Positions 24,551 to 49,940 of a stretch of 64,000 bases of DNA are shown piece after piece (the stretch's first letter is position 1; every line of letters starts with the position of its first letter). The DNA is from Planctomycetota bacterium (GTDB taxonomy: Bacteria > Planctomycetota > UBA1135 > UBA2386): positions 1 to 64,000 of the forward strand of contig JACRLW010000025.1 in NCBI GenBank assembly GCA_016235155.1, in the 5' to 3' direction. The translations under genes and the position numbers were made by a program. A model generated the notes under the pieces. It searched no databases. It worked only from the letters and a program-made list of their open reading frames with translations, and had not been told where the DNA came from.

Positions 24551-26942
<2,392 letters not shown>

Positions 26943-27033: not shown

Positions 27034-28725
27034 GTGAACGACTCCGCCCCCCTTGCGGACGCCGCCGGCGTCCATCGCCGCCTCGCCGCATTGCTCGCAA
27101 GGGTCGAAGCCAACGACCGGTTGTGCGCCGAGTTGGATCGCGCACGCCGCGAGTTCTTCGGCCAAGACCGATCCGATCCCGCCGACGGGCTGGATCCCAC
27201 GGCGCGCGCTGCCGCGGCCCAACGCTTCGTCGAGTGGTTCGTCATCGAGAGGCAAAGCGACGTCCTCGGCGGGACCGTCGTCGACTCGTTCGGCGACCCG
27301 GACGACAACGACGCCCCGCTGGCCCACAGTCGCGCCGGCCTGTTCCTGGTCGAGACGGGCGGCGCCGACCCGACCGTTCGCGATCTCGACGGCGGCGAAG
27401 CGCTCCAACTCGTCGATGCGAGTCCGACCCTCCGCCCGGGCGATGTGCTCGCCGGCCGCTTGTTCCCGCTCGACGACGGCGCCTACGCGCCCTCGATCGC
27501 GACCGGGCTCTTCGCCGAATCACCGGGGCTCGCCGTCGCGTTCCAACGCGACGGCCGGCGGCTCGCGTTGGGGCGCCGCCTGTCGCAGGCGGAACTCGAA
27601 CGCCTCGTGTTCCAGCAGTGGGCCGCGGCGGCGGGGGCGCGGCAGGGTGCCGCCGACGATGCGCCGCCGCTCGAGAGGATCGAGGCCGACCTGCAGCGCC
27701 TTCTCGAGACCGCCGGGCTCGACGACCTCCACTCGGCGACGTCGCTCGGCGCCGCGATGAAGGCCGCGATCGATCGACCCGGCGCGGTGATCGGCCCCAT
27801 CCTCGACGAACTCGCGTTCCAGACCGAAGCCGATCTCGACGCCGCGCGCGTCCTGCTCCTGCAGCTCTGGAACGCGCACCGACGGCGCGCCACCGGCGAA
27901 CGGACGACCAGGTCGGCACCGTTCGAGCCGCCCCAGGCGCCGCCGCAGTTCCAGGAGCAGACCGGTGAGCACCTCGGGCAGCGGCTCGCGCGTCGCATCG
28001 AGGAGGGACTCGGCAACCACGAGGACATCGAATCGCTGTTCGCCGACGTCGAGCGACTGCTCGGCGAACCGCTGGACGACGAGTCCGAGCCCGAGTCTGC
28101 CGGAGAAGGGATCGAAGACGGCGACCTCGCCGCGCTGCTGCGCGAGTTCGCGTGGGAGACTGGTCTGGCCGCCGCGGAGGAACAACAACTCGACGAACTG
28201 CTGCGCGCGCAGCAGCAGGCGCCGGTGCCGCGATTGAACGTCGAATACCTGCAAGCCGACGACTGGCTGCGCTGGCTCTGCCAGATCTGGTTGGGCGCGA
28301 AGCCCGCGCGGCGAGCGGAAGCCGTGCGCGGCGCCTTCGACCTCGCGACGCGCTTCTGCGAGTGGCTCGCCGACACGCAGGCGATCGATTGCCGCGACCG
28401 GCTCGTGGCGCCGCGTCGCGTGCTGCTCGACGCCGCCGACCGCCTGCAACGCGCCGGATCGTCGTTGGGGGACGACGCGCTCCCACCTGGTGGTCCCTTC
28501 GGCGTGCGCCTGCTGCGCGTGCTCGGCCGTCGCGAGGACGCGTTCGAGGTCGAGTCCATCGACGACGGCAACACGACCTGGGTCGCGGCGCCGGCCAACG
28601 CACTCGCGGCGCTGGAGATCGGCGACCTGCTGTTCGCCGCGGTGGATGCGGCCGGGGACTCGACGGCGCGGCTGAAAGGTCCCGTCGCACTGTTGCCCGC
28701 GGGCACCGAGTCCCTGCTCGGCTGA
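27034..28725 (+). CDS. large hypothetical protein (GTG start 27034, alternative ATG 26941)
   Basis: Long ORF, in same-strand series with the 28843 gene; no family recognised. Confidence 0.65.
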   Translation: MNDSAPLADAAGVHRRLAALLARVEANDRLCAELDRARREFFGQDRSDPADGLDPTARAAAAQRFVEWFVIERQSDVLGGTVVDSFGDPDDNDAPLAHSRAGLFLVETGGADPTVRDLDGGEALQLVDASPTLRPGDVLAGRLFPLDDGAYAPSIATGLFAESPGLAVAFQRDGRRLALGRRLSQAELERLVFQQWAAAAGARQGAADDAPPLERIEADLQRLLETAGLDDLHSATSLGAAMKAAIDRPGAVIGPILDELAFQTEADLDAARVLLLQLWNAHRRRATGERTTRSAPFEPPQAPPQFQEQTGEHLGQRLARRIEEGLGNHEDIESLFADVERLLGEPLDDESEPESAGEGIEDGDLAALLREFAWETGLAAAEEQQLDELLRAQQQAPVPRLNVEYLQADDWLRWLCQIWLGAKPARRAEAVRGAFDLATRFCEWLADTQAIDCRDRLVAPRRVLLDAADRLQRAGSSLGDDALPPGGPFGVRLLRVLGRREDAFEVESIDDGNTTWVAAPANALAALEIGDLLFAAVDAAGDSTARLKGPVALLPAGTESLLG

Positions 28726-46522: not shown

Positions 46523-47203
46523 ATGAGCACGATCGCGATCCTGGTCGGTCCCCTCGCCGGGTACTTCGGGGACGGCGTGCGCGCCGCGGCGCGCGAGAAC
46601 GGTGAGGCCCCGCCCGACGACGACGCGCTGCGCGCGAGCGTCGTCGCCTGGCGCGAGTGGATCAGCGAGGGGCTCGAACGCGAAGGACTCCTGCTGCGCC
46701 CGCTCGTCTGGGACGAGAGCACGCCGCCCGATCCCGGCCACGCGCTCCTGCTCCCTGCGCTGCAGGCGCTCAAGCTCTTCCTCTCTCACGGCGGTTCGGC
46801 GTCGTGTCCCCCCGAACTCCCTCCCGACCCCGAACTCGATCCGGCCTGGGTGGCCCTGGCGGAATCCGACTTCGCCGACACGTCCTACGACCAGCTCCTC
46901 GTTCCCGAGTTGTGGTTGCCGGCCGCGTTCGACTTCACGTTCGCGTGTCCGTTGCCCGACGGCCACGAAGTGCAAGCCGGTTCCGTCGACGCCCTGCTCG
47001 CCCAGTGCGCGGCGTTGCGCGAACGCTTGTTCGCGGCGACGCCGATCGACGCGGCGATGTGGGCGGAGGCGCCGCCGTCGGGTGCCGGGGTGCGCGCCCT
47101 TGCACGGCACGCGGCAGGTCGCATCGAGCGTGCCGCGTCGAGCGCGGCGGCGTCACGCGTGCCGATGCTCCTGTGCGCGGCGCCGATCAGCCGGCTTTCT
47201 TGA
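46523..47203 (+). CDS. hypothetical protein
   Basis: ORF 13 bp after the DUF1552 stop; 17-bp convergent overlap with the TraB gene. Confidence 0.55.
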   Translation: MSTIAILVGPLAGYFGDGVRAAARENGEAPPDDDALRASVVAWREWISEGLEREGLLLRPLVWDESTPPDPGHALLLPALQALKLFLSHGGSASCPPELPPDPELDPAWVALAESDFADTSYDQLLVPELWLPAAFDFTFACPLPDGHEVQAGSVDALLAQCAALRERLFAATPIDAAMWAEAPPSGAGVRALARHAAGRIERAASSAAASRVPMLLCAAPISRLS

Positions 47204-48221
47204 AGCTCGCGCGCCGAGCGCGAAGCGCGTCGATCCGCTCCTGTAGCGACTTCACCTCGCTCTCGAGCGTCTCGATCTCCTCGTCGAGGTTGGCGGGACT
47301 CTCGGGGACGCGGGTCACCGCAAAGCCCTGCTCGCGCAGCAGCTTGACCAGGCCGGTGTTGCCGAACGCGTGCGCGGCGCCGACGGCGAAGAACCAGCAA
47401 CGTTGCGGTTGCTCGCGCAGCTTCACCGCGATGCGGTCCGCCATGCGGTGGTTGCGATCGTGGAGCAAGGCCTTCTCGATGCGCTTGCTCAGCTCGCTGT
47501 CGTCGTCGGCCTCGTTCATCAGCGCCTCGAGCTGCGCACCGGAGCCGTCTACGTACGACTTGATCAACTCCTCGTAGAGGTCGCGGCCCTTCGCCTTGAA
47601 GTCCTCCACCTGGTCGATCGCCTTGCGCAGCATCTCGCCCTGCTCGAGGTCGGTCAGGCCGTCGAAGACGCCCATCTGCTCCTCGATCGTCTCGAGTCCG
47701 CCGACCTCCTTGTCGTCGTCCTCTGCGCGCTGGTAGAGCTGCAGGTCGAGCGCCTTGCCCATGGCGATCTCCGTGAGGTGGTCGAACAACGCGACCTGCG
47801 ACGCGATGACCCACGGCTTCATCCGCTCCATCGGCGCGAGCGGCATCTCGCGCGCGGCGAAGAAGGCCTCGAGCTTCGCATGCACCTCTTCGGGAAGGAC
47901 CGTCTTCAGCGTCTTGCCGCGCGGCAGCATCATCCCCTTGGTCGCGGCACTGAGCAGTTTCATGTCCATCGCGAGCTCGGTGTAGAGCGCGTCGCAGCGC
48001 TCGATCGCGGCCTCGACCTCGGCGTGCAGCGTGGTCACCCGCTCGTCGGGCAGGTGGATCGTGCCGAACAGGAACGACGGGGTCTCGCCGTCGATCCGCC
48101 ACAGGAAGGGTCGCTCGGGGGGCTTGGGCTCGACGTCCTGTGCGCGCGGGGGAATGACGAGCAGCGCGAGCGCGGCGATCGTCGTTGCGATGAGCTGGGC
48201 GAAGCGTGAGGAGCGGTTCAT
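47187..48221 (-). CDS. TraB/GumN family protein (secreted)
   Basis: FLWRIDGETPSFLFGTIHLPDERV; CDALYTELAMD; CWFFAVGAAHAFGNTGLVKLLREQGF. Confidence 0.9.
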   Translation of the reverse strand: MNRSSRFAQLIATTIAALALLVIPPRAQDVEPKPPERPFLWRIDGETPSFLFGTIHLPDERVTTLHAEVEAAIERCDALYTELAMDMKLLSAATKGMMLPRGKTLKTVLPEEVHAKLEAFFAAREMPLAPMERMKPWVIASQVALFDHLTEIAMGKALDLQLYQRAEDDDKEVGGLETIEEQMGVFDGLTDLEQGEMLRKAIDQVEDFKAKGRDLYEELIKSYVDGSGAQLEALMNEADDDSELSKRIEKALLHDRNHRMADRIAVKLREQPQRCWFFAVGAAHAFGNTGLVKLLREQGFAVTRVPESPANLDEEIETLESEVKSLQERIDALRARRASFKKAG

Positions 48222-48340
48222 GGCGGATGTGGGCGCGGACCCTACGCGCCTGCGAGCGTGCGCGCGAGGGCACCGCTATCCTCCGCCGCGCGGATGACCG
48301 GCCAACCCAGCGACGACGCGACGACGCGTGGTGATCTCAC

Positions 48341-48405
48341 GCTGGGCCCGAAGGCCGGAGAATCGTCGCGGGACGCGACGATTCGGGAGGCCGGAGGGCC
48401 CCAGC
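48341..48405. repeat. 65-nt long imperfect inverted repeat containing an 11-bp perfect stem
   Basis: GCTGGGCCC-GAA-GGCC-GGA-GAATCGTCGCG-GGA-CGCGACGATTC-GGGA-GGCC-GGA-GGGCCCCAGC, read directly. Confidence 0.85.
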
Positions 48406-48417
48406 AAGAAGAGCGGG

Positions 48418-48479
48418 CGAGGCCGTCTTGGTCGTCGCGTCAGCGACGACGCATGCAACCCGGATGGGTTGCGGCCTCG
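48418..48479. repeat. nested inverted repeats compatible with a three-way junction
   Basis: CGAGGCCG/CGGCCTCG outer arms enclose GTCGTCGC-GTCA-GCGACGAC and GCAACCC-GGAT-GGGTTGC. Confidence 0.8.
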
Positions 48480-48485
48480 GCCGCG

Positions 48486-49940
48486 ATGGATTGGCAAGGA
48501 GCGCCGCACGCGTTGGCGCCCCTGTCGAAGCTGCGCCTTGGAAAGGACCTGGGCGTCCTGCGCTGGATCTTCGAGTTCGGCCGACATGCCGTCTTCCGCC
48601 TGCTGGACGGGATCGCTCGCGCGGCGCTGGCGATGCTCGGTTCGGGTGCTTCGCCGCGGCCGCCGGGCAAGGAGCCGCGTGCCGGCGGGCCGATCGCCTT
48701 CGTGCTCCCGGTGCTCCCCGATCTCTCGCACACCTTCGTCTACCGCGAAGTCGAGGCGATCCTCGCCCTCGCTCCCGACGCGCTCGTCGTCGTCCTCGAG
48801 CACGGGACGACGCGCGTCGTGCATCCCGAGGCGGCACGCCTCCTGCCGCGCGCGCGCTACGTGCCGGCGCGCGGCGTGGTCGCGCGCGCGTGCGGGTTGT
48901 TCGTCCGGTTCGCGACGTCGCCACGCCGCGTGCGCGCGCTCGCCGCGCTCTATCGCGACGGACCCGGCGGCGCCGCCGCGGCCCTGCTCGGCAAGCTGCC
49001 CCTGCGCGAGGCCCGCCATCCCGGCCGCGCCTTCGAACTCGCCGCGCTGCTCGCCCCGTTGAGGCCCGCGCAGATCCACGTCTACGGGTCCACCTGGTCC
49101 GCGAACGTCGCACTCGGCGCCGCCGTCCTGCTCGACGTGCCGCTGAGCATCTCGAGCTACGTCGACTTCGAGTTCGACTACGCGCACAAGCTGCTCGCGA
49201 CCAAGTTCGAACACGCCCGCTTCTTCCGCGTCTGCACGCGCGACTGCCGCAGGCGCCTCGCACGGATGCTCGCGCGCGAGGACCTCGCGACAAACGACAT
49301 CCGCGTGCCGATCCTGCACTGGGGCATCGACGCGGCGCGCCTGCGCGCACGATCGCCGGCGCCGCCGCCTCGTCTCGCGCGCGAGAACCTCCGCTTGATC
49401 AGTGCTTGCCGCGTCGTGCGGAAGAAGGGCCTCCACCTCGTCCCGCCGCTGCTCGCCGCGCTCGTGCGCGACGGAATCGACGCGCGCTGGACGCTCGCCG
49501 GCGACGGTCCCGAACTCGCGCGCGTGAAGTCGCTCGCCCACGAGCACGGCGTCGAAGCGCGCTGCACGTTTGCAGGCCCGTTGCCCAACGACGCGCTTCT
49601 CGCAGCCATCGAGTCGAACGACATCGCGCTGCTCCCCTGCGTCGAGACCGACGACGGCGAACGCGACGGCATCCCCGTCTTTCTGATCGAGGCGATGGCG
49701 CTCGGCCGCTGCGTCGTGAGCACCTGCGTCTCGGGCATTCCCGAGCTGATCGAGGACGGCGCGAACGGCTGGCTCGCGTCCGCCGAGCCCGGCGCTCTCG
49801 CCGCGCGCATCGGCTCGATCCTCGCCGACCCCGTCGCCGCGCGCGCGATCGCCGAACACGGACGCGATTCCGCGCTCGCGACGGAGGACAGCGCGGCGAG
49901 CGCTGCGGCCCTGCTCACGCGCCTGCGTGCCGCGCCATGA
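48486..49940 (+). CDS. glycosyltransferase family 4-like (ORF open from 48258; ATG at 48294, 48453 or 48486)
   Basis: LISACRVVRKKGLHLVPPLLAAL; GDGPELARVKSLAHEHGVEARCTFAG; ETDDGERDGIPVFLIEAMALGRCVVSTCVSGIPELI. Confidence 0.85.
   Translation: MDWQGAPHALAPLSKLRLGKDLGVLRWIFEFGRHAVFRLLDGIARAALAMLGSGASPRPPGKEPRAGGPIAFVLPVLPDLSHTFVYREVEAILALAPDALVVVLEHGTTRVVHPEAARLLPRARYVPARGVVARACGLFVRFATSPRRVRALAALYRDGPGGAAAALLGKLPLREARHPGRAFELAALLAPLRPAQIHVYGSTWSANVALGAAVLLDVPLSISSYVDFEFDYAHKLLATKFEHARFFRVCTRDCRRRLARMLAREDLATNDIRVPILHWGIDAARLRARSPAPPPRLARENLRLISACRVVRKKGLHLVPPLLAALVRDGIDARWTLAGDGPELARVKSLAHEHGVEARCTFAGPLPNDALLAAIESNDIALLPCVETDDGERDGIPVFLIEAMALGRCVVSTCVSGIPELIEDGANGWLASAEPGALAARIGSILADPVAARAIAEHGRDSALATEDSAASAAALLTRLRAAP

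Follow-up and report, generated by a model that had tools for sequence, protein, structure and literature searches.

A two-module structured repeat inside a glycosyltransferase gene of an uncultured Planctomycetota bacterium is very probably a non-autonomous mobile element

Introduction

A cluster of GC-rich hairpins lies near the start of a glycosyltransferase gene in an uncultured Planctomycetota bacterium. We analysed it within the window, a 64,000-nt stretch of contig JACRLW010000025.1 (assembly GCA_016235155.1). The first-pass annotation had placed the hairpins at 48311-48485, between divergent TraB-like and glycosyltransferase genes, and considered a 5' UTR regulatory RNA, an ncRNA or a palindromic (REP/MITE-like) insertion. 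The locus therefore raises the question of whether these hairpins regulate a neighbouring gene or came in as a repeat. Here we report that 48343-48490 is, with high confidence, a copy of a two-module non-autonomous mobile repeat that is probably moved in trans.

Results

We folded 48338-48494 and found a minimum free energy of -101 kcal/mol, compared with -69.5 +/- 4.0 kcal/mol in shuffles (z = -7.95). None of 200 dinucleotide-preserving shuffles was as stable as the native segment (0/200), and the hairpins thus stood the comparison with shuffled sequences. The reverse strand was likewise stable (z = -8.6).

The fold contains two modules on the forward strand. Module 1 is a long interrupted hairpin (48344-48401) with helices at 48344-48349/48396-48401, 48353-48356/48389-48392 and 48360-48370/48374-48384. 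The 11-bp perfect stem GAATCGTCGCG/CGCGACGATTC and its two purine internal loops, described earlier at 48341-48405, were reproduced. Module 2 is the three-way junction that had also been described (about 48413-48484); it was recovered with a closing stem at 48413-48424/48473-48484 and hairpins at 48429-48453 and 48455-48472. An alternative pairing had been proposed as well. GACGCGACGAC (48315-48325) does complement GTCGTCGCGTC (48431-48441), but the "mutually exclusive" fold is incidental, since 48315-48325 belongs to the host coding sequence beyond the element's boundary and is not conserved in the sister species.

We then compared the fold across 47 copies from three species, using an alignment with 49 pairs and 500 shuffles. 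Both-sided changes were found in 21 pairs and 117 cells, compared with 12.3 pairs and 41 cells in shuffles; the copies are kin and fall in subfamilies, so these counts do not represent independent events. The covariation score was 0.167, compared with 0.086 in shuffles, and 0/500 shuffles reached the pair, cell or score value. Structures shifted by 1-3 columns gave only 8-16 pairs and 11-31 cells. Compensatory changes are spread over every helix, with covariation of helices 1-3 supporting module 1 and that of helices 4, 6 and 7 supporting module 2. In the version found in another genus (G016, described below), the closing stem is altered coherently, for example GGCCGTGGCC with GGCCACGGCC. The covariation that the first-pass annotation had proposed to look for is therefore present, and it is strong evidence that the fold of the element is maintained by compensatory change. 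G-U pairs (67) do not clearly outnumber A-C mismatches (50), so neither strand is singled out as RNA.

With 71% GC and an open reading frame running through it, the element region could owe its hairpins to chance. The stability (z = -8), the covariation, the presence of about 100 copies and the absence of the stretch from an ortholog already refute this explanation, and its probability is practically nil.

The neighbouring genes were determined by comparison with a sister species of the same genus (G001; JADLHO01, Planctomycetota bacterium isolate SJ480). An orthologous segment of this genome (contig C256), 76-77% identical, has the same divergent TraB-family and glycosyltransferase genes without the element. 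The divergent neighbour belongs to the TraB/PrgY/gumN family (47187-48221, minus strand; PF01963, 2e-62), and the glycosyltransferase gene (GT group 1) occupies 48294-49940 on the plus strand (PF00534, 5e-24), with its start and the empty site taken from the sister genome. The glycosyltransferase there has its start at the position that corresponds to ATG 48294, and its protein begins MSGTPSHDREPPALIPWPGGPQALAPLAKL. The window protein starts at ATG 48294 as MTGQPSDDATTRGDLT, passes through the element and resumes WQGAPHALAPLSKL, and the frame is open from this ATG across the entire element. When the element was excised with one end word kept, the join read DLT-L-D-WQGAP, in frame.

Since the ortholog lacks the element and the frame is kept, the element adds 48 in-frame codons to the window glycosyltransferase, near its N-terminus. 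The equivalent start in the ortholog also means that the intergenic gap spans 48222-48293 and does not include the element; the placement of the hairpins between the divergent genes was thus wrong. The first-pass annotation had asked about protein-level conservation across 48294-48485, and here the frame does run through, but the orthologous protein lacks the stretch. Because the gene starts upstream of the fold, a 5' leader RNA is effectively refuted at this locus. This single cross-species empty site, together with the frame tests below, is the basis for a presumed 4-bp TGGG duplication. A 20-kb comparison of contig C118 with the sister genome gave no further empty site, as the flanks of the copies did not align. 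Some neighbouring genes are common to loci L041 and L062, and others to L042 and L069, but the copies at these loci did not align as orthologous sites.

The host draft (G000) comprises 5.34 Mb in 152 contigs and is 85.5% complete. The other copies that a BLASTN search had been expected to reveal were found: 48294-48500 gave 49 matches in this draft, some of them in tandem and many with an identity above 90%. With a covariance model trained on 50 copies we obtained 114 matches at E <= 0.001, and since these include partial copies and places matched on both strands, we put the copy number at roughly 100. An independent scan with an 18-mer of the 3' end (<=1 mismatch) gave 87 matches, compared with 1 for the reversed control. 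Contig ends fall in a copy at least 9 times, so the true number is higher. The nearest relative is at least 95% identical in 26/85 curated copies, which suggests that the family spread recently.

The covariance model matched the window copy at exactly 48343-48490 (plus strand; 169 and 166 bits). The earlier extent, 48311-48485, was corrected to these boundaries, giving a 148-nt element that runs from 5' TGGG to 3' GATGGA. Its ends are sharp. Across 84 copies, conservation starts abruptly at TGGG and stops abruptly at CGCGATGGG, dispersed copies have unrelated flanks, and tandem copies have one TGGG in common. By the end logo and the frame test, the 5' end word TGGG (48343-48346) is presumed to be a target copy; by the sequence and the end logo, the 3' end word of the window copy is TGGA (48487-48490), where the family consensus is TGGG. 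For copies not preceded by another element, we found a weak preference for A at -1 (p = 2e-5) and C at -3 (p = 0.002), and this preference upstream of the target resembles the element's own 3' end. Rare end-word variants were found at both ends of one copy 4 times, compared with 1.2 expected, a weak effect (p = 0.02).

The two ends, TGGGCCCG... and ...GCGATGGG, are not inverted copies of each other, and a classical MITE, which has terminal inverted repeats, was rejected on this ground. The element is 148 nt long and has no transposase gene of its own; no longer form was found. An autonomous parent with the same ends was also considered and rejected, as the isolated 3' ends proved to be truncated copies or copies at contig ends.

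Several variants were observed among the copies. A subfamily (L031, L035, L036, L039) carries a 15-nt insertion at the tip of the first hairpin and totals ~163 nt. Two copies (L050:2498-2646 and L130:2503-2651) are apparently chimeric, with halves from different subfamilies, which suggests that copies have recombined or exchanged modules. The two modules also exist as separate pieces, either a solo 5' hairpin or a solo 3' three-way junction (L024, L033, L054, L060, L148, L155, L157, L197-L220). One perfect inverted repeat formed from the element's 3' end, CCCATCGCGGCC-TC-GGCCGCGATGGG, stands alone past a gene end at L199:2995-3028 (contig C102 of the host draft, near 27110).

We evaluated the position of the copies relative to genes with a codon-usage gene caller trained on the host draft. 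Outside called genes we found 73/85 copies, although the surrounding sequence is 87% coding; a few of these "outside" copies, including the window copy, are truly intragenic, as the caller set the gene start too late. Furthermore, 7-8 other copies split a coding frame into two halves, and taking the element out with a single TGGG left behind restores the frame. An open coded join resulted in 7 cases when the flanks were joined with 1, 4 or 7 nt kept from the 3' end, whereas keeping 0, 2, 3, 6 or 8 nt gave none and keeping 5 nt gave one; these tests set the kept length only modulo 3, and slightly different limits give eight cases. The interrupted genes include those for an AcrB/CusA-type RND pump, an AAA_14/DUF4143 ATPase, a YhgA-like protein and an HD-domain protein, and a fifth resembles an MFS transporter below the Pfam cut-off. 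Residues 1-497 and 557-1066 of the RND pump align with ZneA 1-498 and 510-1019. The ZneA chain is thus nearly unbroken, and the two blocks place the insert between two conserved halves. A net insert of 143 nt breaks the frame, and inserts of 144 and 138 nt keep it. In-frame insertions in protein genes were found for the window copy, L026 and L135.

Some copies lie at the ends of genes. The upstream gene apparently stops at the TAG of the element's CCGTAG at L057, L127, L129, L140 and L156, and the ATG within the terminal GATGGG apparently serves as the start codon of some downstream genes. Copies may therefore alter gene ends through CCGTAG and GATGGG. Two small genes between two same-strand copies (L032:2808-3406) look, by eye, like a ParDE-type toxin-antitoxin module.

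A cis-acting 5' UTR RNA, a riboswitch or leader controlling the glycosyltransferase and many other genes, would agree with the covarying fold and with the divergent gaps, which hold 24 copies compared with 6 in convergent gaps. But divergent gaps are also longer, and the excess becomes weak once all intergenic bases are taken into account (chi-square ~3.9, 2 degrees of freedom). In co-directional gaps orientation is unbiased, with 20 elements along transcription and 17 against it, and copies lie inside unrelated genes in both orientations. No Rfam family matches the element, even at E up to 1. Elsewhere in the window, a TPP riboswitch was recognised at 26147-26241 on the minus strand (RF00059, 69.5 bits). 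With orientation at 20 versus 17, no Rfam match and G-U at 67 versus A-C at 50, the suggestion of a 5' UTR regulatory RNA or ncRNA was not supported.

The distribution among genomes also bears on this question. The copies of the sister species, ~20 in number, are more diverged. In another genus of the family (G016; JAEUHP01, MAG-20) the version is 124 nt long and lacks the middle hairpin, two copies were found in a third genus (G005), and one further genome of the order gave a single weak match. In an order-wide scan that scored only 20 candidates per genome under stricter filters, any match was found in 5/154 genomes, and 149/154 were without. Such a patchy distribution is typical of mobile DNA. 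Roughly 100 copies in one species, against 149 of the 154 order genomes without any, further oppose a leader RNA, which we regard as highly improbable. In viral contigs, the 3'-end pattern gave no match; matches in Frigoribacterium and Saccharofermentans contigs were examined and are not convincing copies.

We searched the carriers for an enzyme that could move the repeat. The Y1 (RAYT/IS200) transposase domain PF01797 was found neither in the host and sister genomes, which are incomplete drafts, nor in G005, and G016 gave one sub-cutoff match. The DEDD transposase of IS110 (PF01548) was not found in the incomplete drafts of four carriers. Genes between closely spaced copy pairs were ordinary.

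These results bear on a GTAG-type REP or another IS200/IS605-derived element whose RAYT-like Y1 transposase is missing from the draft. The repeat is structured and has a fixed end word, about one copy in three has GTAG close to its 5' end, the draft is only 85.5% complete, and REPs have been reported in Planctomycetes (PMC3733652). However, PF01797 was not found in two independent carriers (host and sister) or in G005, with only the sub-cutoff match in G016. Furthermore, GNAG lies at element positions 8-11, with T second in 30/84 copies, and is internal; it is not the terminal motif of a REP. We consider this explanation unlikely.

A retro-element-like repeat, copied via RNA and primed at its 3' end, was weighed as well. 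Partial copies are more often 5'-truncated (~23) than 3'-truncated (~7), which would suit such priming, but both the covariance search and the 3'-end search are biased toward 3' halves. Reverse transcriptases were found in the carriers G001 and G016 and also in the non-carriers G009 and G015, and none was found in the host draft or G005. The lack of a clear G-U enrichment over A-C also speaks against copying via RNA, and we judge this route improbable. We therefore conclude no more than that the element moves in trans, through an enzyme that would recognise its folded form, most likely as DNA.

Discussion

Of the readings offered by the first-pass annotation, the palindromic (REP/MITE-like) insertion is the one that the many copies, the empty site in the sister genome, the intragenic insertions and the covariation support. 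Copies with sharp ends, an empty site and no transposase gene of its own place the element in the broad class of small non-autonomous mobile repeats. It fits best as a new family within the known class of small non-autonomous structured mobile repeats. A literature search outside subscription journals revealed no description of the family.

Several described systems are close to it. REP and REPIN sequences are hairpins of 20-40 bp that carry a terminal GTAG, are associated with RAYT genes and have been reported in Planctomycetes as well (PMC3733652, PMC3116915). Like them, the element is folded, dispersed, non-autonomous and sometimes intragenic, but it is 148 nt long with two modules, has no terminal GTAG, and no RAYT was found. 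The RPE repeats of Rickettsia are palindromic, 105-146 bp long, and occur between genes and fused in frame in protein genes (PMC2229807). The in-frame insertion is shared by the window copy, L026 and L135. In contrast, RPE have terminal inverted repeats where the element has direct TGGG words at its ends, and the copies here are mostly outside genes, with some breaking the frame.

The bcr1 repeats of the Bacillus cereus group are 100-400 bp long, reach up to 130 copies per genome, and have a mobility tied to a TTTAT motif (PMC6542083, PMC3446304). Likened by description, they share with the element its size, copy number, fixed short motif, restriction to one lineage and absence of a known dedicated transposase; they differ in having TTTAT rather than a TGGG end word and in an unrelated host and composition. 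YPAL/RU-2 of Yersinia is 168 bp long, not AT-rich, and has internal inverted repeats and no TA ends, and CIR of Caulobacter forms two separate long stem-loops, one from its 5' section and one from its 3' section (PMC2229807). Both come from unrelated hosts and are likened by their published descriptions; YPAL has target duplications of 3 to 26 bp, whereas the end word here is fixed. By analogy, the best reading is that the element works like REP, RPE or bcr1 repeats.

We propose that an enzyme supplied in trans would recognise the folded element. The recognised form would probably be DNA, either single-stranded or as a cruciform, because the fold is conserved but the orientation relative to genes makes no difference. 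The element would be joined at a TGGG target, with a weak preference for CNA-TGGG, leaving TGGG at both ends. In IS200/IS605 elements, guide tetranucleotides pick the target. As a further guess from this analogy, an internal CCCA that pairs with the terminal TGGG in the fold might help to select the target. In the window, the insertion hit the glycosyltransferase gene in frame near the N-terminus and was tolerated. It is possible, but rather doubtful, that this amounts to a new mobilisation system, in which a hairpin and a three-way junction without terminal inverted repeats and with a fixed TGGG end word would be moved by an enzyme of a class other than Y1, DEDD or reverse transcriptase, with CCCA as the target guide.

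For practice, a GC-rich hairpin cluster near a gene start calls for a check of copy number before it is called a regulatory RNA. The repeat also breaks draft assemblies, with at least 9 contigs ending in a copy. For the organism, we describe a family of roughly 100 structured copies, apparently recently active, in uncultured Planctomycetota and absent from Rfam, whose architecture and end word are unlike the REP, RPE and bcr families as described. It has reshaped proteins, adding 48 residues to the glycosyltransferase and to the RND pump and breaking others. If the mover is not a RAYT, the family would point to a new way in which folded DNA is moved.
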